Source: Flagellimonas sp. MMG031
GTDB lineage: Bacteria; Bacteroidota; Bacteroidia; Flavobacteriales; Flavobacteriaceae
Direction of reading: 5' to 3'
Length of the DNA stretch: 64,000 nucleotides
NCBI RefSeq assembly: GCF_040112705.1
Contig: NZ_CP157804.1
Location: 3,094,001-3,158,000 of the forward strand
Below, piece after piece: positions 3-37,199 of the stretch; positions within the stretch are counted from its first letter, which is position 1, and each line of letters begins with the position of its first letter. The notes beneath the pieces are model-generated. The model had not been told where the DNA came from, searched no databases, and worked only from the letters and a program-made list of their open reading frames with translations. The translations under genes and the position numbers were made by a program.

Positions 3-536
3 TTTTATACAAAATCAATGTGGAGCGATTTGGAAAACAAAACAGAATCTTTTGTTTTTGAGAATAGGGAAATGGACTTTAAAGAAATTTGTCTGAATGC
101 AATATTTACTTATGATACTTCAAGTGAGATAATGGATTATCAATACAAAAACAGAAAGGATATGGAACGAACTTCTGAAATTTTTATATCATATTTTCCA
201 TATAAACACAAATCTATTTTACTAATGGGCTATCATAAGGATGATACAGCAAAATTAAAATCATATGTAAATCTTTTTTTCAAGGAAAATATTAAAAGAA
301 CTCATAAAAGATTATCAAGCCTAATAATTTTCAATTGTGAAACTTGGGTTTGTTCTAACTCATTTTACAAAGAGAAATTTGAAGGACTTGATTCTGAATT
401 TTTCAAAGCGATGAAGTTCTCTGCAAAAAATGGAAATGAAAGAAAGACATTTAACTTTGATTTATTTAAAACAGATTTTAAAATGGCCTTTAAGAATTTT
501 ATTAATAAAAGTGTTGGCCAACAAAGAAGGCTATAA
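3..536 (+). CDS. Hypothetical protein, 5' end probably outside the window
   Basis: I do not recognise this protein. An ATG lies at 18, but the frame stays open to the window edge (codons for F-Y-T-K-S precede it), so the gene may begin upstream. The visible 172 residues are rich in Phe, Lys and Asn, have no signal peptide and no clear membrane segment, and end in VGQQRRL. The gene is markedly more AT-rich than the KAP NTPase gene that follows, which suggests a separate origin. About 90 bp of non-coding DNA separate it from the next gene on the same strand. Confidence 0.55.
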   Translation, partial: FYTKSMWSDLENKTESFVFENREMDFKEICLNAIFTYDTSSEIMDYQYKNRKDMERTSEIFISYFPYKHKSILLMGYHKDDTAKLKSYVNLFFKENIKRTHKRLSSLIIFNCETWVCSNSFYKEKFEGLDSEFFKAMKFSAKNGNERKTFNFDLFKTDFKMAFKNFINKSVGQQRRL

Positions 537-629
537 GTAATTGCTTCTTTTTAACTACTACTGAATATGTGTGAGAATTTTCAGTTTAATGATTAAACGT
601 ACCATCCTAAATTTTGGTGTGTCTAAACT

Positions 630-3266
630 ATGAAAAATTGGTTTGCCAAAAATATGATAAAGAAAGAGGTCAGGTTGTTTCTATTGGCGATAGGACTGGT
701 AATCATCTTTCAGAATCCTTTGGAAGACGTATTCAATTCATTAATAGTGAAGCCAATTCTTGGCCAAGTTCAATCCAACATTTTTATTGACCTTACAATG
801 CTTGGTTTTTTAATCTGGATGTGGCATGATATCCGGGGAAAATTCACCAAACCTACCGATTTGGGAAGAGGATATTCAGCTGTGTTGGTCTTTGTATTGG
901 GGATTTACATCTACTACCGATTTTTCTCGATTCGATATCAGTTTACCGGCCTTCATCTGATTTCGGAAATTGCTTATTTGGATATAGTCATGCTGTATTG
1001 CTTTTTGCTGGTGATTCTTCGGCCTATTAATCAAATGAAAGGCAAGAAGGGCCCTGAAGTCAGCCAATCTTCTGGATTGGTGGATGAACCCATAGATGAT
1101 GAAGAGGAGGATGTACTGGAACGTATGCCCAAGGTCCGATTACTTGTTGATGAAATCGTTGCAGCTACAAATAAGAATTCCATAGCATTTGGGGTGACCG
1201 GTGAATGGGGATCCGGCAAGACCTCGTTTTTGAATTTAGTTGAGCGTGAAATCAGCAACAGAGACCAAAAGGATTTATTGGTAATAAACTTCAATCCATG
1301 GTTGAATTTGGGTACAAACACAATAATCCAAGAATTTTTTGAACTTCTACGATTAAAAATTCGTCCCCACAGTTTTGACATCTATATGGATATGGGCAAG
1401 TACTCCAGAAACATTTTGAAATCAAGCCCAAGTTCCTTTTTTAAGTTTATAGGGCATCTATTGGAATTCGGCAAAGACAATAGTGTCACGGAAGATTTTA
1501 AGCGGATCAACATTTCTTTGAAAAACTTGGGAAAAAAGTTTTTGATTGTGCTGGATGATATGGATCGGTTAAAAGCGGATGAAGTATTTGAAATATTGAA
1601 GCTGATAAGGAACACGGCCAATTTTGACAACTTCATATATCTGGTTGCCTATGACAAGACCTATATTTCAGAATCCTTGAGTAAGATTGGTATACCTAAA
1701 AACGATGCCTTCGCAGAAAAAATCTTTCTCAAGGAAGAGCACCTCCTACCAATTACTGAGGCCAAGATCAAGAAGTATCTCGCCGATCGGTTAAAAGAAG
1801 AACTCCCCTCAAAAAAACAGGAAATTGACAATTACTTTGGTTATTTAGTACGTTACTTGACCAGGGACAGAGGAAACTTTTGCCTAAAACATATCCGCGA
1901 TGTAAAACGGTTTCTAAAAAATTTCCTTAGAGAGTACAAGGAAATGGAACAAGAAGTGGACTTTAAGGACTATCTCAATGTCAAACTTTTGAAATTCAAA
2001 TTTTATGATGTGTACAGAATACTATTTTTGGATTCTTATTACTACCTACATCCTTCACAGAATACACGCAGTGCCAGTGGGGTGGCCCGAGATGCCCTAT
2101 TATTGGCATATGAAGGCGAGAATAACACCGGACTAGCCATCCGTCATAGAAAATTCGAGGAATCAAGGTTGGGGATCTATGCAACACAGGTGCTCAATAT
2201 GGGGAATGATTCCCTGAAAGATTTAAAAAAGCTGGTATCCGACCTATTTACGAACAACACCTATGCATCGAAAAGCCATCTATCCATTGTTTTCCCCTCA
2301 CACTATTATCGATATTTCCAGGATATGTTGCAAGAACACGAAATTTCAGAGGAGGTATTCAAATCTGAGATTAGAAGGGATTTGGACAGTATACAGGATG
2401 CAATTTCAAGATGGAACGGAGAAGGCAAGTTGGATGCGGTACGCGCACGGTTTTATGAGGTAAGTATCTATAATCTCCCCGATAGGGCGTCATTCGAAAA
2501 ATTTATACGTGCAATCTTTGTTCTAGCCAGCATTCCCATTGAAAAAGAGGAACACACCATTGGGTTCTATGGCTATGACTTGGACAATCTAAGAAATGTG
2601 ATTGGGGATTATGAAGAAAGAACTTCAAAGAAATTCTATAATGGAAAACGGGAAAGTTTAAAAGCGTTTACAATTGAGTTGCTCAACTTCGAAGATTACT
2701 CCTTGGAGTTTTGTGCCTGTTTGCTGAATAGATGGTACAGCTATTACCATGGGTATCAGTGGATTCTCAGTAAACCGGAAATCAAAGCCTTGCTTATCGG
2801 AGCCTTTAAAAATTATACTCAGACAGTACGCTTCCCTGATGATGATGTTTGGAACTATTACGGATATTGCCTAGTCACAGAATGGGATCCCTCAGGTCCC
2901 AATTCACGAACGTCTAGAAGGGTTCGGTTTACTGAGGCTAATGACATTTTTATCGCTTTCATCAAGGATCATCTAGATCAATTTCTGATTAGGTTCATAC
3001 AAACTCCCCATGGATTAACAGAGGCAAATAAATTAGGCATTGAAAGTATTGTAAACGATATATTTGGCAATAGATCCAACTTTATGTCATTTCTTGATGA
3101 TATGAAAATGAAGAAGGATGAAGGACAATTAACTTCTGAATTTATCGATGAATTTCAAGAATTTGCAATGCAATTGGAAGCTTCTGGGAAAGATGGAATT
3201 GAGTTTGAATTTGAATTCCCTCCAGCCATGGAGGTTGTGGCATCCCAGGTATGGCGAAGGGCATAG
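630..3266 (+). CDS. KAP family P-loop NTPase with N-terminal membrane segments
   Basis: This 878-residue protein has the layout of KAP NTPases, membrane-anchored STAND-like ATPases often found in phage-defence loci. Four hydrophobic segments lie at about residues 13-28, 51-65, 84-99 and 114-130, followed by an acidic linker near 152-164. The Walker A is GEWGSGKT at 191-198; the Walker B with the DDMDR signature is at 309-313 inside KKFLIVLDDMDRL. The KAP-typical VINFNPW follows the P loop. The C-terminal half (about 450-878) matches nothing I know and may be the sensor or effector part. It heads a same-strand series with the graspetide-like genes; the gap to the next gene is 60 bp. A defence role is inferred from family and context. 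Other KAP proteins have unrelated roles. Confidence 0.85.
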   Translation: MKNWFAKNMIKKEVRLFLLAIGLVIIFQNPLEDVFNSLIVKPILGQVQSNIFIDLTMLGFLIWMWHDIRGKFTKPTDLGRGYSAVLVFVLGIYIYYRFFSIRYQFTGLHLISEIAYLDIVMLYCFLLVILRPINQMKGKKGPEVSQSSGLVDEPIDDEEEDVLERMPKVRLLVDEIVAATNKNSIAFGVTGEWGSGKTSFLNLVEREISNRDQKDLLVINFNPWLNLGTNTIIQEFFELLRLKIRPHSFDIYMDMGKYSRNILKSSPSSFFKFIGHLLEFGKDNSVTEDFKRINISLKNLGKKFLIVLDDMDRLKADEVFEILKLIRNTANFDNFIYLVAYDKTYISESLSKIGIPKNDAFAEKIFLKEEHLLPITEAKIKKYLADRLKEELPSKKQEIDNYFGYLVRYLTRDRGNFCLKHIRDVKRFLKNFLREYKEMEQEVDFKDYLNVKLLKFKFYDVYRILFLDSYYYLHPSQNTRSASGVARDALLLAYEGENNTGLAIRHRKFEESRLGIYATQVLNMGNDSLKDLKKLVSDLFTNNTYASKSHLSIVFPSHYYRYFQDMLQEHEISEEVFKSEIRRDLDSIQDAISRWNGEGKLDAVRARFYEVSIYNLPDRASFEKFIRAIFVLASIPIEKEEHTIGFYGYDLDNLRNVIGDYEERTSKKFYNGKRESLKAFTIELLNFEDYSLEFCACLLNRWYSYYHGYQWILSKPEIKALLIGAFKNYTQTVRFPDDDVWNYYGYCLVTEWDPSGPNSRTSRRVRFTEANDIFIAFIKDHLDQFLIRFIQTPHGLTEANKLGIESIVNDIFGNRSNFMSFLDDMKMKKDEGQLTSEFIDEFQEFAMQLEASGKDGIEFEFEFPPAMEVVASQVWRRA

Positions 3267-3326
3267 TTATGAATCAATCGTTTTTTTGACCATCAAAGTA
3301 TGTGGCTGAAAGAATTAAACTAAAAA

Positions 3327-3839
3327 ATGGAAAAATACAATATTGAACTTTATACCAACCCGGAACTAAGTTACCACAATTCATTACTGGACAAGTTAAA
3401 GGTCGGCCACTTTATTTATAATATTCGGCAACAAAGAATTGTATTGGTGGACATAGCGGTTCTGGAGGAAATCCTTGAATATGAAAACAAAAAGGAGAAG
3501 ACATCCGAACCTAATTTTGTCCCATTGTACCTAACCCATGAATGGTTGGTCAATGTCTTCAACTTTAAGGCAAAACATATGGCTACAAATGGCATTACAG
3601 TTTATACCTCTGATCGTAATGGTATGAAGATACACGGACAAAGAGGTCAGTTTTTTGTTGGAGTTACCATTAGGGAAAAAATCAATTCCAAAGGCTGGAA
3701 GGGTACCCATGCCAGCAAACCACCCATCTGTTTTGTCAATGAGCTAATGGACTATTGTTTTTTATTGAAACGTGATATGATTACCTTTAATGAGTATGAT
3801 TTGGCTCAAATCAATATATTGATGAAGTATAATCTTTAA
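3327..3839 (+). CDS. Hypothetical protein of a phage/mobile-element type
   Basis: This is a 170-residue soluble protein of unknown function. The stretch LKVGHFIYNIRQQRIVLVD followed by VPLYLTHEWLVNVFNF resembles small proteins common in Bacteroidota phages and mobile elements that read roughly as a short 'identity - becomes - PxxLTxEWLxxF' fold; this likeness is from memory and weak. No catalytic motif is evident. Its TAA stop shares one base with the ATG of the next gene (TAATG at 3837-3841), so it is probably translationally coupled to the graspetide-like precursor and may belong to that pathway. Confidence 0.6.
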   Translation: MEKYNIELYTNPELSYHNSLLDKLKVGHFIYNIRQQRIVLVDIAVLEEILEYENKKEKTSEPNFVPLYLTHEWLVNVFNFKAKHMATNGITVYTSDRNGMKIHGQRGQFFVGVTIREKINSKGWKGTHASKPPICFVNELMDYCFLLKRDMITFNEYDLAQINILMKYNL

Positions 3840-4201
3840 TGCCTAATAAATTGCCTTTTATGAAGCCAATCACATTTCAATTTTTGGAACAATGCGCTGA
3901 GGATGGATTTAATGATTCAGTGTTGTATTACGATGAAGACCTAAATTTATCCGTAGACCGTAAAACGGGATTGCCCGCCTTTGATGTGCTATCCATGGAT
4001 ACCAGCACTGGGACAAAAGATTATGTAGAAGTTTCCGATGCGGATGACTCCTTGAAGGCCTCCTATATGGACACTGCAACTCGTACCAATACGCAAATGG
4101 AATCCACGGATTTGGACAACAATGTGCACCACCTTATCCAAATGATGGATACTTCAACGGCCACAAGGACGTATGATGAGGCAGCAGATTCTGATGTTTG
4201 A
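3839..4201 (+). CDS. Graspetide-like (omega-ester RiPP) precursor with three core repeats
   Basis: A 120-residue protein that reads as the substrate of the adjacent ATP-grasp ligase. The N-terminal part contains KPITFQFLEQ (residues 9-18), similar to the PFFxRFLE leader helix that microviridin ligases bind. The C-terminal half has three copies of M-D-T-[SA]-T-x-T-x(4)-E-x-x-D-x-D at residues 53-69, 77-93 and 103-119, all with identical spacing of Thr and acidic residues. Thr side chains are the usual donors and Glu/Asp the acceptors of macrolactone rings in graspetides, so each repeat could form up to three esters. Start is the ATG overlapping the previous stop; ATG at 3860 is an alternative. 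No double-Gly cleavage site is obvious. The modification itself is inferred. Confidence 0.85.
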   Translation: MPNKLPFMKPITFQFLEQCAEDGFNDSVLYYDEDLNLSVDRKTGLPAFDVLSMDTSTGTKDYVEVSDADDSLKASYMDTATRTNTQMESTDLDNNVHHLIQMMDTSTATRTYDEAADSDV

Positions 4202-4206
4202 CAGGT

Positions 4207-5121
4207 ATGATTCTTATAATAACCCATAGAACCGATTATACTACTGATTTCCTTATTAATAAATTAAACCAAAGGAATATTCCGTACCAAAGATTGAACT
4301 GTGAGAACTTGATTTCCCAGGATTATGCCTTTGAAATTAACTATACCTTTAATTTCCACTTTAAAGGTATCAAAACGTTCACGTCGGGTTGGTTCCGAAG
4401 AACAAAGCTCCCTCAAATCCAAGGTGTGTCCGAGGAAGAAAGGTTATATTTATTGGGGGAGTACGATGCACTTGTTCAAAATATAGTATCATCGATTGAT
4501 TGTCAATGGTTAAGCGAACCCAGACACATCTATTTTGCAGAAAACAAAACAGTACAATTAAAGAAAGCCAAAGGTTTGGGATTTAATATCCCCCCGACCT
4601 TGATTACGAACAAAAGGGACTTGGTCAAAACGTTTTATGATCAGCATGATGGAAACATTGTCATCAAGCCAATTTCCAAAACTCGGATTGACTATCAGGA
4701 CCAGCCAGGATTTATCTTTACAAACGTGGTTGGGAAGGATGTAATTAAAGACCTTGATTCGTTCGATATGAATCCTTGTATTCTCCAAAAAAACATACAA
4801 AAGGAATATGAAATTCGGGTCACTGTAGTAAAAGACAAGGTTTTTGCCGCCGCTGTTGATAGTCAAGAAGATGAGGCCACCAAGGTGGATTGGAGACGGA
4901 AAAAATTGGATTTCAGGGAAACTAGACTACCCAAAACAATAGAAAAGAAGTGTGTTCAACTGGTAAAGGAATGCAAATTGGGATTTGGGGCCATCGATAT
5001 GATAAAGACAATGGAAAATGAATATTTTTTTCTAGAACTGAACCCTAATGGTCAATGGGCATGGATTGAATTGCAAACAGGCCAAAAAATATCCGAGGCA
5101 ATAATAAATGGTCTGACTTAA
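4207..5121 (+). CDS. MvdC/MvdD-family ATP-grasp peptide ligase
   Basis: This protein of about 304 residues has the architecture of the ATP-grasp ligases that close ester or amide rings in microviridins and other graspetides. It begins MILIITH with a small N-terminal fold, carries the WFRR segment common in this family, a nucleotide-binding lysine in NIVIKPISK, the core acidic stretch AAAVDSQEDEATKVDWRR, and the C-terminal metal/phosphate motif FLELNPNGQWAWIE. I prefer the ATG at 4207. A TTG at 4198 also lies in frame and would overlap the precursor stop. Either way precursor and ligase are tightly coupled, which supports one substrate-enzyme pair. No second ligase, acetyltransferase or exporter/peptidase is encoded nearby. 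Confidence 0.9.
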   Translation: MILIITHRTDYTTDFLINKLNQRNIPYQRLNCENLISQDYAFEINYTFNFHFKGIKTFTSGWFRRTKLPQIQGVSEEERLYLLGEYDALVQNIVSSIDCQWLSEPRHIYFAENKTVQLKKAKGLGFNIPPTLITNKRDLVKTFYDQHDGNIVIKPISKTRIDYQDQPGFIFTNVVGKDVIKDLDSFDMNPCILQKNIQKEYEIRVTVVKDKVFAAAVDSQEDEATKVDWRRKKLDFRETRLPKTIEKKCVQLVKECKLGFGAIDMIKTMENEYFFLELNPNGQWAWIELQTGQKISEAIINGLT

Positions 5122-5129
5122 ATTATCCC

Positions 5130-5867
5130 ATGAGTTTTTTCAAATTTCTTTTCTTACCCCGGCAATTGAAATCAAAAAAACCCTTTGATTATGATAAAAA
5201 TAATTATCGGAATCTAAGGAGAGAGCAATTGGAGTTACATAAATCCTATCTAAAAGAAATGGAATCCGAGGAGAATTCAAGGTTGTTAATGATTGAAAAT
5301 AAGACCGCACAATTGGTTTCGCAAACAGGGCTTGTATTTGCACTACTGAGTTTGTTCGTTCCTTTCATCGTTGAATTCGTTCTGAATGTGCATATTATTT
5401 TTCGGGTGGTTTTCATAATGTTGTTAATCATATGCTTTCTGTGCTACATTTTAGCGATAATCAACTCGTTAAAAAATTTCAATGTAAAGAAGTTTAATTA
5501 TGGGTACAAGTCCCCAATGACCATATTGAACCACCAATCTTTGAGTGAAAAAAAATTTATGCAAATGGAAATCAAGGATGCGTTGTATTGCATCAACAAT
5601 AACATCGAAATGAACAACCGAAAGGCAACCCATCTGATAAGGGGATATCATTTTTTCAAATTTGGTATCGTGTCAACCGCGGTACTGGTAGTTTTTCTCT
5701 GTGCATCGCTTCTGTTCATCAACGGTAAAGAAAGTGAAAATGGCACCAAACAACCCTTGGAAACACAAATTAAAAAAGAGTTTTTAGATAATACAACGAA
5801 CAGAGATTTTGAAAAAGTCCATGATACAATCAAGATAGATACAATGTCCAAGGCTAAAATTGATTGA
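5130..5867 (+). CDS. Multi-pass membrane protein, SLATT/PycTM-like
   Basis: A 245-residue protein starting 8 bp after the ATP-grasp gene, so likely the last gene of the operon. Residues about 1-60 are charged; two hydrophobic helices follow (about 70-92 and 95-118), then a soluble stretch with KDALYCINNNIEMNNRKATHLIRGYHFFKFGI, a further membrane helix near 183-205, and a charged tail. The pattern IENKTAQLVSQTGLVFALLS plus a second K/N-rich helix before another TM pair recalls SLATT and Pycsar TM effectors, which form membrane pores in phage defence. That likeness is my reading of the helix layout, not a domain hit. Other roles (export or immunity for the peptide) are possible. Confidence 0.6.
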   Translation: MSFFKFLFLPRQLKSKKPFDYDKNNYRNLRREQLELHKSYLKEMESEENSRLLMIENKTAQLVSQTGLVFALLSLFVPFIVEFVLNVHIIFRVVFIMLLIICFLCYILAIINSLKNFNVKKFNYGYKSPMTILNHQSLSEKKFMQMEIKDALYCINNNIEMNNRKATHLIRGYHFFKFGIVSTAVLVVFLCASLLFINGKESENGTKQPLETQIKKEFLDNTTNRDFEKVHDTIKIDTMSKAKID

Positions 5868-5899: not shown

Positions 5900-6919
5900 C
5901 TATTGCGATAATTCTCTGCTGTTCAAATCATAGGTTGTTACCTTATGAAGGTTAACACTTGTACAATCCATAAGGTCTTGGTCAAAAATGACAACATTTT
6001 TTCCGGAGGGATGCAATGAACTGGCAAATCGTATGCCACTGGCTCCAGTATAGATTCGGATAAATTCGCAGACATACTGAGTTGGGATATATTCTATTTC
6101 CGAATCATACCGCCTCATAGGCTTGGACAAATCTCGACTGACCCTTTCCCGTAATAACTTGGCCATAATCGTCTCCCGTACCATTTCTGGCTGGAACAGA
6201 GGTGTGTCCTCAGTAAAATCCACTATATTGACAAATTCATTTTCCTCTTTGAGTTGAAATGTGGCTATGCTGAGTTCATCCAAATAGGATGCCCGTACTT
6301 CATAAAGCACCGTCTTCGGATTATCACATAAATATAAGTAGGGTATTCCCATAGGGTTAGCCCTACCTCCTTTTGCAAAATCGCGTGTAGGTGCATACAT
6401 CTTATCATGGGGATAGGCTTGGTTCCCGCTTTGGTGATGGACCCTGGCCCTATATAGAAAAGTGTCTGGTGTCAAGCCATATTGTGTATTGAAGAATCCA
6501 TCCCAACCCAATTCAAGCAGCTGGTCCAGATTGGACAAAAATCGATGGGACCATTTCAACTCTTTTTTAAGAATTTCCCAATATTCATGGTTGTTGTTTA
6601 TTTCCTGGATATAATCAACAGGGCTACTGGCATTATTTATCTCGGTATCGATTTTTGGCAAAACATAGTTTAAGATACTTTCGGCCACTTGATGATTAGA
6701 AAAAAAACTCCAATTTCCTTGGATTTTGTTTTTGATACTATCCCCATCTTCGACAAGTCTATAATTATCGATGAGTTCCTGAAAAAAATCCATGAGCTCG
6801 TTGATGTCCATGATAGGCTGATCTGTGGCGGTACAAATAGCACAATCCCCTTTTGAGTTCGAGGCGGAAACAAAGGCTTTCAATTCAGTATCGGTAAAAC
6901 AACTAGGGCAAACTTCCAT
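5900..6919 (-). CDS. RES domain protein with N-terminal zinc ribbon
   Basis: 339 residues. An N-terminal C4xxC7 ... C26xxC29 pair suggests a zinc ribbon, followed by a helical part (HEPN/RES N-terminal-like) and a C-terminal RES domain. RES landmarks are LYRAR (Arg157/159), TVLYEVRASY with Glu207, and GIRFASSLHPSGKNVVIFD with the conserved serines. Stand-alone RES toxins degrade NAD+; here the domain is embedded in a larger protein without a Xre-type antitoxin beside it. It is the last gene of a trio: 3 bp separate it from the sce7725-like gene. Such RES proteins often accompany sce7725/sce7726 genes, which suggests one functional system. Function as NAD+-degrading effector is inferred. Confidence 0.85.
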   Translation of the reverse strand: MEVCPSCFTDTELKAFVSASNSKGDCAICTATDQPIMDINELMDFFQELIDNYRLVEDGDSIKNKIQGNWSFFSNHQVAESILNYVLPKIDTEINNASSPVDYIQEINNNHEYWEILKKELKWSHRFLSNLDQLLELGWDGFFNTQYGLTPDTFLYRARVHHQSGNQAYPHDKMYAPTRDFAKGGRANPMGIPYLYLCDNPKTVLYEVRASYLDELSIATFQLKEENEFVNIVDFTEDTPLFQPEMVRETIMAKLLRERVSRDLSKPMRRYDSEIEYIPTQYVCEFIRIYTGASGIRFASSLHPSGKNVVIFDQDLMDCTSVNLHKVTTYDLNSRELSQ

Positions 6920-6922
6920 GTA

Positions 6923-7855
6923 TCAATATTGGCTAAGATAGTTTTGAAGGATAAGAAGATGGTTCTTGATACTGATTTTCTTTACGGTTCCAAGCCCAGG
7001 ATAATGTTGACGGTCGTAGTAATCCTCCAATTCCGCAATCGCTGGGTTGTTGAATCCGTTAGCCCTACAAAATCCTACAGCTTTTTCAGCAGCTTCGGCG
7101 AATTTCCCTTGAACGTTGGCAATGGAATCATTGGTGTCGGAAGTAAAATGCCTGATCCAAATTTGGTTGTCGGCTTTCATATATGTCAAATGGATAACCA
7201 CTGCCCTAGGAGTGCTCCCACTATCACTGAATTCACTGGGAAGCACCGTATAATCAGAAAAACCACTGAAGCTTTCATTTACATAATGGAGATGTTCCTC
7301 GGAAAATCGATGCTCCTGAATGTCAAGAAAATCACTGTTCCGCTGTTGCTTCTCGAAAAAATCATCCAAACGGATATAGGTTTTGCCTAAGCCCCTGACA
7401 TAACGATCCAAGGCTCTATTTCTTCCCGGGTCTTCCACAACAACGGACTGAACTGAAGCGGACTCCACTAGCCTCCTGAACTCAGGATCATCAGGATTAA
7501 GATCATTTTGACAAATGACCATACAATCCCCCAATCCGTAATCTGCTATTGCCTTTAAAATGTAGTCGGCATTGTTTCTGAAATAAAATGCTCTTCCTAT
7601 CGAGAACTGACCCTGCTGCAGGTATTCCAAAAAAACCTCACGATCACCGGTCACCTCACCGACCAAAGGGTTCACAATGATAAACGCTTGTTGACTGGTA
7701 GCGGCAAATGTTGAAAGTGCAATGTTTAAATTGTTGAACGATTCTTTGACCGGTTCCAAAATAGGCACAATGGTACCTTGGGAAGTGTTTGTATTGGCCA
7801 AATCCCGTAGTGCAATCAATTCAAATTGCCGTGCCCTAAGTAGTGGATAATACAT
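6923..7855 (-). CDS. sce7725-family (beta) protein
   Basis: 310 residues, beginning MYYPLLRARQFELIALRDL and containing IVPILEPVKE early in the chain, the signature of the sce7725 / beta protein family (named from a phage T4-type beta protein). No catalytic residues are established for the family. The start codon lies inside the end of the sce7726-like gene (20 bp overlap), and the RES gene follows after 3 bp, so the three are almost certainly co-transcribed and probably act together. I infer a role as scaffold or regulator of the trio, without direct evidence. Confidence 0.85.
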   Translation of the reverse strand: MYYPLLRARQFELIALRDLANTNTSQGTIVPILEPVKESFNNLNIALSTFAATSQQAFIIVNPLVGEVTGDREVFLEYLQQGQFSIGRAFYFRNNADYILKAIADYGLGDCMVICQNDLNPDDPEFRRLVESASVQSVVVEDPGRNRALDRYVRGLGKTYIRLDDFFEKQQRNSDFLDIQEHRFSEEHLHYVNESFSGFSDYTVLPSEFSDSGSTPRAVVIHLTYMKADNQIWIRHFTSDTNDSIANVQGKFAEAAEKAVGFCRANGFNNPAIAELEDYYDRQHYPGLGTVKKISIKNHLLILQNYLSQY

Positions 7856-8726
7856 GGGTAGGTTTAATTGGTGATTTAAGATGATCCATCAATGCTTTCC
7901 TGTCCGCTGTTGACAACTTCAGGGCAAGACTCATTTGATTGAATTCCTTGTAATGTTTCTTATTGAGGGCAATGGGCTTTTGCCTAGCCTTCATAACAGA
8001 AATGAAATAGGAATTGAGTTCATCATTTGGAATCTGTAAGATCAATTCCCTACATCTCTCAAATTGGTTGAAACTAGTCATTTTTGGCAAGCTTCCAAAA
8101 TGTCTTTTGACCAGATTTTTGTATTCGTGTGTGTGCAATACTTTCATTATGGTATTTTTGTCCAATTCACTATTGGGAATGGCCTTGCGGTGAACCTGAA
8201 ATTTTTCATTACTATCGGGCCGATACAAAATTATTCCGATTTCCTTTCCAAAATGCTCATATTGACCAAGTCTTGATTCTGAAAGTACTAAGTAGATTTC
8301 GTTGAATGCCCTTTGATAATTTACCAATTGGAAATCCAAACGTTTGGCCGAGTCCATCTCAGTCTTTATCTCAAAGACCTTGGAAGTCCCATTGAACATG
8401 GCAAGGTCGGCGACTGAATTTCCTACTCTGAATTCCGAGAAAACCTGTGAATCACCGGCGTTGACCTCCTGAATCAAACATTCATTCAAAAAGCTATTCT
8501 TAAATATATACTCGTTCTGGTAATGACCTTCAAGAATTTTATAAACGTACCTAAGGTATTCAACAAATGTGGTATTGTCCATGGTCAACCAATCCTCATC
8601 ATATCTTATTATTTTATGGTAAATGGAGGTAAAATCATTTTTGAACCATGATTTGACCTGATTTCTGGAAAACAAGGAGGAATAATCCCGTAATTGATTA
8701 ATTGAAAAGGAGGAAGTACTTGCCAT
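7836..8726 (-). CDS. sce7726-family protein with PD-(D/E)XK-like core
   Basis: 296 residues. The sce7726 core is seen as SVADLAMFNGTSKVFEIKTEMDSAKRLDFQLVNYQRAFNEIYLVLSE. Within it Asp107, Glu119-x-Lys121 and Gln133 follow the spacing of a PD-(D/E)XK nuclease active site. The N-terminal 60 and C-terminal 100 residues are helical and of unknown role. It is the promoter-proximal gene of the sce7726-sce7725-RES trio. About 200 bp of AT-rich DNA precede it and presumably hold the promoter. Nuclease activity is an inference from the motif. Confidence 0.85.
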   Translation of the reverse strand: MASTSSFSINQLRDYSSLFSRNQVKSWFKNDFTSIYHKIIRYDEDWLTMDNTTFVEYLRYVYKILEGHYQNEYIFKNSFLNECLIQEVNAGDSQVFSEFRVGNSVADLAMFNGTSKVFEIKTEMDSAKRLDFQLVNYQRAFNEIYLVLSESRLGQYEHFGKEIGIILYRPDSNEKFQVHRKAIPNSELDKNTIMKVLHTHEYKNLVKRHFGSLPKMTSFNQFERCRELILQIPNDELNSYFISVMKARQKPIALNKKHYKEFNQMSLALKLSTADRKALMDHLKSPIKPTHVLSTT

Positions 8727-31682: not shown

Positions 31683-33479
31683 TTAATCCTCAATTGCCTT
31701 GGCCTGCCGTTCCAGAACTATAATCCTTTCCTTGATCCTTGCTTCACGCTTTTGACGACTTTCTGCATATGTTTCTTCAATGGCCGAGATCTTTTTTTTG
31801 TAAAAGGATAGCATCGCCACATAGAAAGATTGGTTGGTCAGGTCATTGGTATGGTTGCTTTCCCCAAGGTGTACCTGCCGGGTCAACAAAAACCGTATCA
31901 GTTTATAGAAGGTCTCTTTCTTGAAGTTTTGTTTGAACCGGGCCACCAGCTCCTCTCGGGACAATTTGGAATCCTCCCCAATGAACCCCTCAAAATGTTC
32001 CCTTTGACTATAATATCCAATGTTGTTCTCGAACAGTGAGATGGAGATGGCCACCATTTCATCCGTGGTCAAAGGTTTGTTCCTATTGATGTAATCCGTT
32101 TCCCGGATCATATCCACCACTTCCTTGAACTGGTGGTTGTTCTCGATCTGTTTTTTCCTAAGTTCCCGTGCATGAATCTTGATGATCTGTTCCTCTGGGG
32201 AACATTCGGCCATCTTCCGTTCCTCCAAGGACTTGGCACCTGAACTTCCATTATTGGTTTCTTCCCTGACCTTTACAAAAATGGACTGTGTCAAGTAGGT
32301 ATCCGTTTCCAGTAGAATACCCTTTTCAAATCCATTTTCCACGGCCTTGTCCCATGCCTCCTTTTCCTCGGTGAAGGATTCCAAAGCTTCGTCAAGGAAT
32401 TCAGCCAATTCTTCCTCGGTGTATTCATAGTGCCGGTGCTCTTCTTTAATGCTTTTCATGGTAGGCTCAAGAGGCTCCTTTAAAATTTCCAGTTCATTGG
32501 TCAAATGTACCTCAAGACCTTCTTTTTCCATTTGGGCCATGACCCATTGGTTGTGTTCCTCATCCACCCAATATTTGCTGATGTTGGGTACCAGTTTCAG
32601 TCCCTCCTTTTTCACCCTTTTCAAGAGTTGCATAAATGTCTTGGTCTTTTTGTTCTCAAAACAGGATGTCCGGGTACAGACCATCTTCCCTTCCCCGAAC
32701 AAGTTACCTTGGTTAGCGGCATTGAAGGGACAGACAACACATGCCCCTGCTTTGGGCACCAAAGTTTTGTCCGTTACATCAAAGCAGGCTTTGGTCAGGT
32801 CAAAGGTCCGGCTTTCAATCATCCGTTTGATCCGATGCCCTTGGTATTCTCCTTCAAGGCTTTCTAGCATCATCTGTTGTTCCCCAGGTTCAAAAAGGGC
32901 CACTGCCACCCCAAGGGAAATGGTCATTTCCCCATTTCGGACAAAGACCCTAAACCCTTCGATCAAGCCTGCTAGTTTGATGCGCTGGCGGATATAGTTC
33001 TCGGAACGACCCAACCGTTTGGCAATCTCGTTCGGTTCGTAGCGGTCCAACAGAAACTGGATGGCCTCTGCCTCCTCTGTGGGTTCCACATCCTTCCGTT
33101 GCAGGTTCTCAATGATCTGCACTTCCAGAACTTCCGTATCGACATAGTTCCTTACCATGGCAGGGATAGTGGACAATCCTGCCAATCTACTGGCACGGAA
33201 CCGACGTTCCCCCATGACGATGATATAGCCATCATCTGATTTTCGTACCGTGATCGGCTGTAACACCCCATGTTCGGCAATGCTCTGTGCCAAATGATGG
33301 AGACTTTGCTCATCAAAGGTCTTTCGGGGTTGTGTCGGATCTGGAGAAACCGAACCGATTTCCAACATCTGGATTTGTGGAACAGCATTCCGTTCCTTCT
33401 GCGGTGTGGGTCGCTTTACTTTTGATGATTGCTTGGCGTTTCCCTTGCGTGTCGCTCTTTGTTTTGTTTGTGCTTCCAT
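31683..33479 (-). CDS. ParB-like partition/regulatory protein
   Basis: 598 residues from ATG 33479 (MEAQTKQRATRKGNAKQSSK). ParB N-terminal domain: IQMLEIGSVSPDPTQPRKTFDEQSLHHLAQSIAEHGVLQPITVR, the CTP-binding box MGERRFRASRLAG, ENLQRKDVEPTEEAEA, then the HTH EIAKRLGRSENYIRQRIKLAG. A four-Cys patch follows (CVVCPFNAANQG...CTRTSCF), as in many plasmid ParB-like proteins. The long C-terminal part is coiled and charged. No ParA lies beside it. Starts upstream of 33479 are in poor composition. The leader is shared with the small gene at 12600. Confidence 0.9.
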   Translation of the reverse strand: MEAQTKQRATRKGNAKQSSKVKRPTPQKERNAVPQIQMLEIGSVSPDPTQPRKTFDEQSLHHLAQSIAEHGVLQPITVRKSDDGYIIVMGERRFRASRLAGLSTIPAMVRNYVDTEVLEVQIIENLQRKDVEPTEEAEAIQFLLDRYEPNEIAKRLGRSENYIRQRIKLAGLIEGFRVFVRNGEMTISLGVAVALFEPGEQQMMLESLEGEYQGHRIKRMIESRTFDLTKACFDVTDKTLVPKAGACVVCPFNAANQGNLFGEGKMVCTRTSCFENKKTKTFMQLLKRVKKEGLKLVPNISKYWVDEEHNQWVMAQMEKEGLEVHLTNELEILKEPLEPTMKSIKEEHRHYEYTEEELAEFLDEALESFTEEKEAWDKAVENGFEKGILLETDTYLTQSIFVKVREETNNGSSGAKSLEERKMAECSPEEQIIKIHARELRKKQIENNHQFKEVVDMIRETDYINRNKPLTTDEMVAISISLFENNIGYYSQREHFEGFIGEDSKLSREELVARFKQNFKKETFYKLIRFLLTRQVHLGESNHTNDLTNQSFYVAMLSFYKKKISAIEETYAESRQKREARIKERIIVLERQAKAIED

Positions 33480-33494
33480 GATTTTTGGATTTTG

Positions 33495-33600
33495 GTTAAA
33501 CAATATTTGAGCAAAAACCAAGCGGAAGACAAAATTTTGGGGTGGCAAGGAAACGGAATAAAAAGAGACTTACGGAACGGCTTTATGCCGTCCCTTGTCC
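33495..33600 (-). promoter_or_regulatory. Leader of the ParB-like gene, shared with the small gene at 12.7 kb
   Basis: On the minus strand: ACGGCATAAAGCCGTTCCGTA (hairpin with arms acggc/gccgt), TTATTCCGTTTCCTT, AAAATTTTG, and GCTCAAATATTG, ending about 18 nt before the ATG at 33479. The blocks correspond to those at 12795-12895 in the same order and at the same distance from the start codon. Confidence 0.6.
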
Positions 33601-34077: not shown

Positions 34078-34692
34078 ATGCCCATACCCACTGAAAAACT
34101 TATAAAAAATTCAATTTCGAACCATAAGCGTGGAAAAATTTTTTTCCCGAAAAACTTTTCCAAATTCGGTACATCTGAAGCGATAAGGCAAGCATTGAAA
34201 AGGTTAGAGGACAAAGGTTTTTTGATCCGATTGGCCCAAGGCATTTATCTATATCCCAAAGAACACAAGCTACTTGGGACGTTATATCCGTCTTTGGAAG
34301 AAATTGCCAAAGCAATCTCTAAAAGGGATAAGGCCAGAATTATTCCCACTGGGATTCAGGCACTCAACCAACTGGGGCTTTCCACACAGGTACCTTTGAA
34401 TTTAGTTTACTTGACGGACGGAACTTCCCGTACCATATCCGTTGGGGAAAATACAATAAAGTTTAAAAAGGCTTCCCCTAAAATTCTAGCCGTCAAGAGT
34501 GAGACCAATATTCTTATCATGCAAGCCCTGCGCCAATTGGGCAAACACAATATAGATGACAAAACCTTGGAGAAAATAAATATGATACTCCAAAAGGTTG
34601 ATAGAGAATCAATAGTTCATGATATGAAGCTAGCTCCTGTTTGGATTTCTGAAATTATGCAAAATTCACTATCAAAAAGGGAACCGACATGA
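34078..34692 (+). CDS. abiEi: AbiEi-type antitoxin (DUF6088)
   Basis: 204 residues. Winged-helix N-terminus: KIFFPKNFSKFGTSEAIRQALKRLEDKGFLIRLAQGIYLYPKEH, then the AbiEi body (IIPTGIQALNQLGLSTQVPLNLVYLTDGTSRTISVGENTIKFKKASPK). It represses the operon and counters the toxin without direct binding (type IV). Its stop overlaps the toxin start as ATGA at 34689-34692, so translation is coupled. Confidence 0.92.
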   Translation: MPIPTEKLIKNSISNHKRGKIFFPKNFSKFGTSEAIRQALKRLEDKGFLIRLAQGIYLYPKEHKLLGTLYPSLEEIAKAISKRDKARIIPTGIQALNQLGLSTQVPLNLVYLTDGTSRTISVGENTIKFKKASPKILAVKSETNILIMQALRQLGKHNIDDKTLEKINMILQKVDRESIVHDMKLAPVWISEIMQNSLSKREPT

Positions 34693-35687
34693 AGGAATGG
34701 TTTGATTTATCCGAACAGGACAGAAGAGAAGTGATTGTTCAAACAAGTATTTTAAAAGGCCTTCCACAGGCGGCCATAGAAAAGGATTGGTGGGTGGTCG
34801 CTGTCCTTCGCACCCTATTCGAAACCAAATATTCAAACCATCTGGTTTTCAAAGGAGGTACATCCTTGAGCAAGGCATGGAGACTTATTGAGCGCTTTTC
34901 GGAGGACATAGATCTGGGTATGGATAAATCCTTTTTTGAATTTGAGGGAGATCTTTCCCGAAAACAGGTTAAAAAACTTAGAAAGGCATCATGCAAGTTT
35001 GTGAGCGAGATACTGCCACAAGATTTAGAGGATAAGCTTCATGAAATGGGCATCAAGGATTTTACCATCCATGTCCGCGATTTTGAAGAATCAGATACTG
35101 ATCCCTTGGCCATTGAAATCCGCTATAAGTCATTGGTCGACAAGGTTCCCTATTTAGAACCCAGAATACTGGTTGAAATAAGCTCCAGGTCACTTCGGGG
35201 ACCCTTTGAAAATAGAGAGGTTATATCGTTTATTGGGGAAATGTACAAAGGCCTATCCTTTGCTGATAAAGCCGTTTATATACCCACAGTTTTGCCTCAA
35301 CGCACATTTTTGGAAAAACTGTTCCTATTGCATGAGGAATTTCAGAAACCAAAAGAACGGGGACCAATAAGAGGTCATCGAATGACAAGGCATTTATATG
35401 ATGTATCCAGAATGATGGATACAGGATTTGGGGAATCGGCAATAAAGGACAAAGCATTGTACGACAAAATTGTGGCACACCGAGAAGTATATGCACGAAT
35501 ATCTTGGATCGATTATTCAAAGCATGGTTATAAAACTTTGAATTTCATTCCACCTGAAGAAGTTATGGCAGAATGGGAAGAAGATTATGCGGAGATGAAA
35601 GAGAGCATGTTCTATGGTAAAACGGAAAGCTTTCAAGATTTAATCAACAAGCTAACCGGCTTGAGAGATAGGTTTAATTCAGCCTAG
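34689..35687 (+). CDS. abiEii: AbiEii nucleotidyltransferase toxin
   Basis: 332 residues with the DNA-polymerase-beta-like NTase core: LVFKGGTSLSKAWRLIERFSEDIDLGMDKSFFEFEG, i.e. GGTSLSK and the catalytic SEDIDL. AbiEii toxins transfer nucleotides to tRNA acceptor ends and cause abortive infection. The full DUF1814 body is present (PTVLPQRTFLEKLFLLHEEF..., RHLYDVSRMM). Forms the AbiE phage-defence pair of this element. Confidence 0.93.
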   Translation: MKEWFDLSEQDRREVIVQTSILKGLPQAAIEKDWWVVAVLRTLFETKYSNHLVFKGGTSLSKAWRLIERFSEDIDLGMDKSFFEFEGDLSRKQVKKLRKASCKFVSEILPQDLEDKLHEMGIKDFTIHVRDFEESDTDPLAIEIRYKSLVDKVPYLEPRILVEISSRSLRGPFENREVISFIGEMYKGLSFADKAVYIPTVLPQRTFLEKLFLLHEEFQKPKERGPIRGHRMTRHLYDVSRMMDTGFGESAIKDKALYDKIVAHREVYARISWIDYSKHGYKTLNFIPPEEVMAEWEEDYAEMKESMFYGKTESFQDLINKLTGLRDRFNSA

Positions 35688-35924: not shown

Positions 35925-37199
35925 CTACCGTACAATTCTCAAATTGGGAACCCCACTGTTATCTTGAATTTTATGGCTGCTCTCATCCAATATGTTTTTC
36001 AATTGGGCCATGTCCTTACTGATTTTCTTTTCCACCACCCTTGCATACTTTTGGGTCGTAGAAAGCTTGGTATGCCCCAAGAGCTTGGAAACGGTCTCTA
36101 TGGGTACGTCGTTCATAAGGGTGATTGTTGTTGCAAAGGTATGTCTGGCCACATGGAACGTTAGGTGCTTATCAATATTTGCCCTTTGTGCAATGATCTT
36201 TAGGTATTGATTCACCTTTTGATTTGAGTACACAGGAAGAACAATATCTTCATTTTTGGGAAAATCCGCATACTTCTCCAAGATTTTCTTGGCTTTGGTC
36301 AATAGGGGGACCTTGACTTCGGTCTTGGTCTTTTGGCGCTTTACATCGATCCATAGTTCCCCATCGATGCCGGATACGATACCGTTGGGTTTGAGAAGTT
36401 TGATCTCAATGTAGCTCAGTCCAGTATAGCATGCAAAAAGGAAAATATCGCGGACCAGTTCCATCCCCTTTTCCTCGAATTTCAATTGGCCCAGTGCCAA
36501 GATTTCCTCCTCTTCCAGAAAAGCACTGTCATAATCCTCCATTTTCACTTTATAGAGGTTGAAGGGATTCTTGGGGATGCAATCAAATTTATAGGCCATG
36601 GTCACCAATTTCTTGAACCGTAGCATATGTTTCATGATGCCATTGTTGTTCAATGTTTGGAACGACTTGATGGGTTCGCAGTTCCGCAGGAAGTTTTCAA
36701 ATTCAATCAAAAAGGCATAGTCAATGGAGGCCAACCCAATATCGGGCACCCGATATTTTTTGGCAATGAAACATTTCAGGTAGGTCTCTGTAGAAGAATA
36801 GTTCTTGACTGTCCCTTTGGCCAGTTTGGGCAACTCATAGGTTCGGTTATACTCCAAAAGGTCCAATAGGGTGAGCATCACCTTGTCCTTCCCCAGATAT
36901 CTAAGCTTGATGGATTGTGCCGTTATAAAGTTGCTCTCCGCACAGAGTTGTCGGTGGCATTCCAGCAATTTTGCCCGGACGTCGTCCAAATATTTGTTGA
37001 CAACAACGGATTCACTGGCCCTATGGTCCATTTTTCCCAAAACAGGACACCATCGTTCTTCAAAAGTTGATCGATGGACACTGAGATCTGCATTTTTTCC
37101 TTTACATCTGATTCGGACATAAATTGGAAAACGTCCATCTTTTTTTCTTCCTGATTTTTTCAGCCAAAAACTGATACTGAAGGCGTTAGAGGTATTCAT
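35925..37199 (-). CDS. int: Tyrosine recombinase / integrase of the element
   Basis: 424 residues: an arm-type N-terminus (SISFWLKKSGRKKDGRFPIYVRIRCKGKNADLSVHRSTFEERW), a core-binding helical part and the catalytic domain. Catalytic residues: LTFHVARHTFAT (His-x-x-Arg), LLGHTKLSTTQKYARV (His and nucleophile Tyr). At the place of the first Arg the chain has FACYTGLSYIEI, Ser instead of Arg, as in the CTnDOT integrase. It drives excision and integration of the 1-37 kb element; it points towards the element and its start faces the right junction. Confidence 0.93.
   Translation of the reverse strand: MNTSNAFSISFWLKKSGRKKDGRFPIYVRIRCKGKNADLSVHRSTFEERWCPVLGKMDHRASESVVVNKYLDDVRAKLLECHRQLCAESNFITAQSIKLRYLGKDKVMLTLLDLLEYNRTYELPKLAKGTVKNYSSTETYLKCFIAKKYRVPDIGLASIDYAFLIEFENFLRNCEPIKSFQTLNNNGIMKHMLRFKKLVTMAYKFDCIPKNPFNLYKVKMEDYDSAFLEEEEILALGQLKFEEKGMELVRDIFLFACYTGLSYIEIKLLKPNGIVSGIDGELWIDVKRQKTKTEVKVPLLTKAKKILEKYADFPKNEDIVLPVYSNQKVNQYLKIIAQRANIDKHLTFHVARHTFATTITLMNDVPIETVSKLLGHTKLSTTQKYARVVEKKISKDMAQLKNILDESSHKIQDNSGVPNLRIVR

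Follow-up and report, generated by a model that had tools for sequence, protein, structure and literature searches.

A graspetide gene triad behind exchangeable defense genes in Flagellimonas sp. MMG031 is a candidate effector module of bacterial immunity

In a 64,000-nucleotide stretch of the Flagellimonas sp. MMG031 genome (NZ_CP157804.1, positions 3,094,001 to 3,158,000; hereafter the window), five genes on the + strand, designated A to E, form an operon at 630-5867. The genome itself is 3.76 Mb in a single contig. Gene A (630-3266) encodes a KAP NTPase, B (3327-3839) an unclassified protein, C (3860-4201) a predicted graspetide precursor, D (4207-5121) an ATP-grasp ligase of graspetide type, and E (5130-5867) a membrane protein that is distantly PycTM-like. 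A preliminary description of this DNA had proposed that the five genes together make up a new defense system. That observation appears to reflect a graspetide module that is widespread and changes places between defense front ends, and not a five-gene system. From its genome context, we judge the chances to be about even that C-D-E (3860-5867) is a transferable, swappable effector module of bacterial immunity that is triggered by different infection sensors. The parts of this reading differ in strength. A role of the module in defense is probable, and triggering by a neighboring sensor is a matter on which we are evenly divided. That the peptide is what controls E, in either direction (activator or inhibitor), is possible, although we would put it somewhat below even chances.

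The arrangement was followed in samples of 60 genomes of the genus each, with the window's own genome, G000, included (the samples for D, KAP and OloB differ by one genome, G059 or G875). A close relative of D is present in five of the 60, counting G000, with identities of itself, 98, 87, 87 and 62%, and B-C-D-E is contiguous in all five. KAP lies upstream of B in three of them (G000, G017 and G036). In G008, its place is taken by an adjacent pair that matches OloA (1.3e-59) and OloB (7.1e-136) in PADLOC, which is the gene pair of Olokun, and G040 carries a pair 84 and 83% identical to OloA and OloB of G008. In both genomes the Olo pair ends 10 bp ahead of B. These Olo-type sister loci are L022/L030 and L023/L031; B of G008 is identical to P0006, from Flagellimonas zhangzhouensis, and L030 belongs to Allomuricauda zhangzhouensis. 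The three genomes with KAP and the two with OloB (3/60 and 2/60) are the five B-C-D-E genomes, and neither gene was found elsewhere in the samples. Such conservation across genomes shows that these genes do not merely lie together by chance.

The exchange has a sharp boundary. Between G000 and G008, the bins that run from 150 bp ahead of B up to the C start show 44-58% nucleotide identity. The next bin has 72%, the remainder of C and the greater part of D have 82-88%, and the sequence from late D into E has 92-99%, with 79% in the last full bin. The same comparison of G000 with the KAP-type locus of Croceitalea gives 51-81%, without a step at the B/C junction. At the protein level, B of G000 is 64% identical to B of Croceitalea and 45% to B of G008. 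For E the order is reversed, with G000 sharing 91% identity with G008 and 67% with Croceitalea. Because the identities of B and E disagree in this way and nucleotide identity steps up at B/C, these comparisons indicate that the front and B were replaced jointly ahead of one kind of C-D-E. A conflict between trees of B and D was also considered as an argument and was dropped, as the unrooted trees, built from shared rows only, do not conflict; the identities of B and E are used in its place. Since that comparison says the same as the dropped argument, our estimate for the effector-module reading is unchanged.

Across the family, the D clade (E<=1e-70) is present in 7 of 397 genomes. KAP-B-C-D-E stands in three of the seven, namely G000, G036 and the Croceitalea genome G447. 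The Croceitalea copy (L116 / L032) is decayed, with a KAP that ends early and a D split into two frames. G173 and G313, which belong to two genera and have nearly identical loci (D 99%), show the order C-D-E-KAP without B; this KAP is full-length at 868 aa, is 34% identical over 872 columns and lies 37 bp past E. In G473 and G314 the triad has no front gene in view, and the G473 contig ends just behind E. Relatives of KAP itself occur in 15 of the 397 genomes (1e-40). Six of them reach 1e-200 or better, five of which are beside C-D-E and one of which, in G438, is not. In G438 (L213 6166-9188), the KAP is of the same clade and shares a 4-bp overlap with a 138-aa gene that resembles a small nuclease; by inspection, several TIR-like genes are nearby. 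For three of the nine weaker KAPs (G131, G255 and G278), the fetched stretches held no relative of C, D or E.

The preliminary reading was correct in part: a PifA-like KAP NTPase does share an operon with a graspetide pair and a PycTM-like membrane protein, beside other defense genes, and the combination recurs elsewhere in the genus and the family, two genomes having it in the order C-D-E-KAP. A fixed five-gene system does not survive these comparisons, since KAP and B are swapped for OloAB and another B, C-D-E is widely found without KAP, and the KAP of G438 has another gene beside it. The preliminary description had named homologous KAP and graspetide genes lying apart as the result that would count against it. 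By that measure the fixed system fails, while the replacement pattern points to modular defense and not to chance.

To follow the triad more widely, genomes of GTDB were scanned with D, and the best 80 of 440 relatives plus two genus loci gave a set of 82 loci (L051/L053, L069/L071 and L102/L103 are likely near duplicates). One of these, from Candidatus Ruminimicrobiellum (Elusimicrobiota; L038), carries a CD-NTase (5e-135), an E1-E2 protein (2.8e-173) and a JAB protein (2e-54) in one operon, the gene set of a type II CBASS (cyclic oligonucleotide-based antiphage signaling system), followed by C-D-E after 82 bp. That operon, which lies outside the window, has no further gene; upstream, 1.2 kb and a - strand gene separate it from the nearest + strand gene. 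GajA matches are found near the triads of L091, L096 and L108, with GajB also matched in L091. L082 and L085 have QatA and QatC; for QatD, L082 has a match and L085 a 39% identical gene. Genes of type I, II or III restriction-modification adjoin or lie near L040, L043, L051, L080, L097 and L136, and other neighbors are a ShosA relative (L048), an HNH endonuclease match (L067) and a caspase-family match (L061). In L042, a 1354-aa gene (92-4156) with a caspase-like start, by inspection, ends 45 bp before the triad and has no PADLOC match.

The association with defense genes was then counted. Genes on the same strand as the triad, of at least 200 aa and with a gap of at most 150 bp, were taken as neighbors; 30 qualify, of which 26 were scanned with PADLOC (L037_5, L053_8, L071_3 and L102_9 were left out). 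L038, with a JAB of 161 aa, and the six KAP/Olo loci among the 82 fall outside this rule because their nearest gene is shorter. The first batch was scanned at E<=0.01 and the rest at 1e-10; hits of the first batch lie well under 1e-10, and the genes counted as misses in it matched nothing. At <=1e-10, PADLOC matched 13 of the 26 neighbors compared with at most 7 of 93 control genes (Fisher p 4e-6, with 7), the controls being drawn from 15 evenly spaced stretches in four genomes of the window's order, with their matches in seven families, one gene each. The triads are thus enriched beside defense genes.

The triad also occurs in predicted mobile DNA. Predicted prophage contigs hold C-D-E in L153-L156, and L152 has D and an E-like gene with no clear precursor. 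By inspection, some prophage triads are beside phage-tail-like genes, and the one in L154 (9633-11850) sits between a repressor-like gene and tail-like genes on the opposite strand, a moron-like place. Seven of the 12 viral-contig loci (L157-L163) were rejected, as their ATP-grasps are 24-29% identical and no triad was seen. On plasmids, a relative of D is found in 76 of 72,556 records, every one below 60% identity.

Genes C and D read as the graspetide pair that had been proposed. The C open reading frame (ORF) opens at 3839; in an alignment of five relatives, C begins at the equivalent of 3860 with M-[KR]-P or M-K-K-P, and four of the relatives begin at or next to this position, which gives a protein of 113 aa. 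The gene number, shared strand and gaps of 60, -1, 5 and 8 bp reported previously hold as annotated, with the amendment that C probably starts at 3860, and since the relatives' start maps there, the true gap between B and C is probably 20 bp without overlap. C has three TxTxTx4ExxDxD cores, TSTGTKDYVEVSDAD at 4001-4045, TATRTNTQMESTDLD at 4073-4117 and TSTATRTYDEAADSD at 4151-4195, and so shows the repeated Thr donors and Glu/Asp acceptors of a graspetide precursor. Over the 82 loci, a looser T/E/D motif occurs 2.73 times per precursor and 0.039 times in shuffles of the same ORFs, a comparison that favors the real count somewhat because the precursor was picked as the ORF before D with the most matches; at least one looser repeat is present at 77 of the 82. 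Many relatives begin with a MKPLIL-like sequence that fits, by eye, the leader motif Phhx(1,2)h; in MKPITFQF, the start of the window's own precursor, T occupies the second h position. L043 (4384-5104) and L044 have two tandem precursor genes ahead of one ligase. D (304 aa) is nearest to the NCBIfam models TIGR04187 (9.5e-63; 212 bits, cut-off 350) and TIGR04185 (4.2e-60; 203 bits, cut-off 425), below both cut-offs. The idea that any ATP-grasp in the genus belongs to this group was rejected, as the ATP-grasps of G011, G027 and G043 are 27-29% identical and have no relatives of B, C or E in the stretches examined.

E (245 aa) is predicted to have long helices at residues 31-84, 89-117 and 140-196 (mean predicted local distance difference test score, pLDDT, 79.7). 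At 69 of the 82 loci, a gene of at least 170 aa starts within 60 bp of the end of D. By a crude hydropathy rule, 61 of these 69 proteins have at least three hydrophobic segments, mostly near residues 65-85, 93-113 and 180-200, and the other 8, the window's E included, have two. A profile of 48 E proteins was compared with 20 PycTM domains from loci that PF18967 had identified, and scored 34.1 (E 1.3e-4) over 131 columns. One reversed and six column-shuffled controls scored 12.0-17.0. The alignment places IENKTAQ of E with IADTKAN ahead of the first membrane helix, and NNRKATHLIRGYHFFKFG of E with RKYKILRLTYTVFMIG of PycTM ahead of the third. This supports a distant kinship, and we call E PycTM-like rather than a PycTM member because PF18967 is not among the Pfam matches listed for the 48 E proteins while the profile score exceeds the controls. 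An earlier description of E as SLATT/PycTM-like therefore stands for PycTM by profile comparison only; the SLATT_1 model NF033634 gives 11.9 bits, under its cut-off of 41, and the other Pfam SLATT models have no match to the window's E. In searches of viral structures, a 149-aa viral protein ranks second (probability 0.99, E 0.23). Elsewhere in the source genome, about 185,000 bases from the operon, there is a PF18967 match (G000:C1:3279051-3279344, 9.9e-12).

The assignment of A (878 aa) to the KAP NTPases is upheld by PF07693 (3.6e-31; 108.9 bits, cut-off 20), a Walker A motif, GEWGSGKTS, at 1200 and a Walker B-like FLIVLDDMDRL at 1539. Its best PADLOC family is PifA (5.8e-47, partial model), and hydrophobic stretches are seen by eye ahead of the NTPase domain. 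B (170 aa) had been called phage-type, a label that found no backing: searches of Pfam, NCBIfam, PADLOC and PHROG gave no match at a meaningful score. As B is exchanged along with the front, we regard it as a likely partner of the front module, and it may be a member of a wider defense-associated family. Shorter, distant relatives of B in L117 (7983-8426) and L118 (8897-9343) are, by inspection, divergent to type I methyltransferase-like genes.

We hypothesize that D would cross-link side chains of the three T/E/D repeats in C to give a trivalent graspetide. As the five genes include neither an exporter nor a leader peptidase, we propose that this peptide would stay inside the cell. The sensors joined to C-D-E would be KAP (with B) in the window, OloA-OloB (with B) in the sister loci, and CD-NTase, E1-E2 and JAB in the elusimicrobial genome. 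Upon infection, the sensor would shift the peptide or E into another state, and E would open or disrupt the membrane so that growth halts before phage release, a form of abortive infection. Activated PycTM is described as disrupting membrane integrity (PMC11224242). The peptide may switch E on or restrain it; both directions fit, as does a toxin-antitoxin arrangement. We can only tentatively suggest a class of immunity in which a ribosomal peptide serves as alarm or effector, with KAP, Olokun, CBASS and other sensors acting through one module of a cross-linked multi-core graspetide and a PycTM-like membrane effector. With the same reserve, such a class would parallel Pycsar at the peptide level, the nucleotide cyclase and cyclic nucleotide giving way to a peptide cyclase and the peptide that it makes.

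Several observations weigh against C-D-E being a sensor-triggered effector module. Many triads have no close same-strand neighbor, and because of these, and of the two family triads of seven without a front gene, a sensor gene next to the triad is not obligatory. The CBASS join is one locus with an 82-bp gap, and the Qat gene nearest to C is 720 bp away in L082 and 383 bp away in L085. PADLOC recognizes only half of the scanned neighbors, leaving 13 of 26 unmatched, and among the 13 matches four are weak or fall only in candidate families (L055 mad8, L061 caspase/PDC, L069 PDC-S06 and L091 PDC-S73). The enrichment partly measures "lies in a defense island", since the control genes come from other genomes than the triads' own. 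For E, the PycTM profile match has 53% probability (an earlier run with a shortened PycTM profile gave 1%, and the fuller domain alone was set against controls). PF18967 is absent from the 25 families listed of the 40 Pfam families that each weakly match one to six of the 48 E proteins, and a Foldseek search of the E model against PDB and viral structures gave nothing at E<=1e-3. Finally, PMC8939145 proposes that the membrane protein of thuringinin loci is a peptide transporter, and states that all graspetides characterized by 2022 are protease inhibitors.

Three other explanations can be set beside this evidence. The triad could be an independent defense or toxin-antitoxin unit that settles in defense islands, with KAP, Olokun, CBASS and Gabija as mere neighbors. 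The many triads that stand alone, those in predicted prophage contigs, the variety of unrelated neighbors, some of them complete and self-sufficient (Gabija, Qat, restriction-modification), and PADLOC controls that were unmatched for defense islands all fit such a unit. We nevertheless find it rather unlikely, since KAP and OloB in the genus occur only with B-C-D-E, gaps of at most 10 bp join several of these genes, the front and B were exchanged jointly at the B/C junction, and two more genera have a full-length homologous KAP joined to the triad in reverse order. If E were instead a membrane toxin held in check by the C/D peptide, infection or a sensor could free it by stopping the ligase or destroying the peptide; C, D and E that stay constant while fronts vary, a small membrane protein with a distant likeness to PycTM, and the lack of an exporter among the five genes agree with this. 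That same likeness is weak at the profile level, however, and the sequences do not tell an activator from an inhibitor, and we consider this version unlikely. Least in keeping with the operons is an ordinary thuringinin-type locus, in which C-D-E makes a protease-inhibiting graspetide, E transports it, and the whole rides on mobile elements with defense genes. The repeated T/E/D precursors, the proposed transporter and the known inhibitors of PMC8939145 speak for it, as does the mobile-looking DNA of the window (by inspection, an integrase-like gene at 35925-37199). It would leave unexplained the operon fusion with KAP, OloAB and CBASS genes and the PADLOC enrichment over controls; moreover, E is closer to PycTM than scrambled controls are and has no Pfam transporter match of weight, which makes this explanation improbable.

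In kind, the C-D-E triad resembles the thuringinin-type loci, which have precursors with repeated T/E/D cores and an uncharacterized "cluster 18" membrane protein (PMC8939145), and thuringinin itself is trivalent with two esters per repeat (PMC12291112). Shared features are the repeated Thr/Glu/Asp cores (three here), one ATP-grasp ligase and a membrane protein, with no transporter gene among the five here. The triad differs in being joined to KAP, Olokun or CBASS genes and in its TxTxTx4ExxDxD spacing, and the available passages of PMC8939145 mention no defense context for thuringinin loci. Like PifA and the KAP exclusion proteins, A has a KAP NTPase domain, but its match covers part of the PifA model, and KAP is linked to C-D-E in five of the six closest relatives among the 397 genomes. 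Olokun is a two-gene system, for which PADLOC has models of OloA and OloB alone; the sister operons of G008 and G040 carry this pair in KAP's place, yet with B-C-D-E 10 bp behind it. In L038 all three signature proteins of type II CBASS precede C-D-E; the difference is that the triad takes the place in which an effector gene would be expected, at this one locus. The likeness to Pycsar (PycC and PycTM) lies in a cyclizing enzyme beside a membrane protein that is distantly PycTM-like by profile, and the difference in a peptide ligase and peptide where Pycsar has a nucleotide cyclase, and in an E without a PF18967 match.

Among ribosomally synthesized and post-translationally modified peptides (RiPPs), the anti-phage lanthipeptides of Streptomyces found so far act inside the cell and are encoded near defense systems (PMC12360287). 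They are of another peptide class with another enzyme, and the available passages describe no sensor or membrane partner. A 2026 survey of 21,584 predicted graspetides notes a frequent DNA helicase in group 10 and raises self-resistance as a possible function for proteins of groups like this one (PMC13097080); neither "phage" nor "defense" occurs in its main text. RiPP families are co-expressed with defense genes in the ocean, although the defense examples in the available passages are not graspetides (PMC11118758). In the main text of the DefensePredictor paper (PMC13092281), no word starts with grasp, RiPP, Olokun or KAP. Among the literature matches listed, there was nothing on Olokun and no link between graspetides and anti-phage activity, both absences being weak evidence because few subscription papers or preprints were covered.

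Thuringinin loci are known from genome mining, and in the available passages of PMC8939145 protease inhibition is the only cellular role given for them. Should C-D-E be an immune effector module, the role of such loci becomes testable by plaque assay, graspetides would join lanthipeptides as RiPPs used intracellularly against phage, and CBASS and Olokun would gain an unrecognized effector option. A repeat precursor, an ATP-grasp and a three-helix membrane gene would then be a marker for finding new sensors nearby. The exchange of KAP and B for OloAB and B before one kind of C-D-E is a natural experiment on which parts belong together.

The DNA around the operon holds further genes. A 341-aa gene reaches into the window from outside and has its tail at 18-536 (+), with its stop 93 bp upstream of KAP. 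This gene is placed outside the unit because G017 and G036 carry other genes there, an FRG-domain gene (PF08867 6.6e-15) in G017 and, further up, a VapE-like gene in G036. The AbiE genes and RES trio that had been noted in the window were both recovered. Behind the operon, at 5900-8726 (-), a RES domain protein (PF08808) stands in a row with proteins of the sce7725 and sce7726 families; the trio is also behind C-D-E in G008 and G040, and was not seen in G017 or G036. By inspection, a ParB-like gene at 31683-33548 (-) and the tyrosine-recombinase/integrase-like gene at 35925-37199 (-) possibly mark one end of a mobile element. An AbiE pair lies at 34078-35687 (+), with AbiEii at 34806-35648 by PF08843 and the preceding 204-aa gene taken as AbiEi by position; four more AbiEii matches are present in the source genome.

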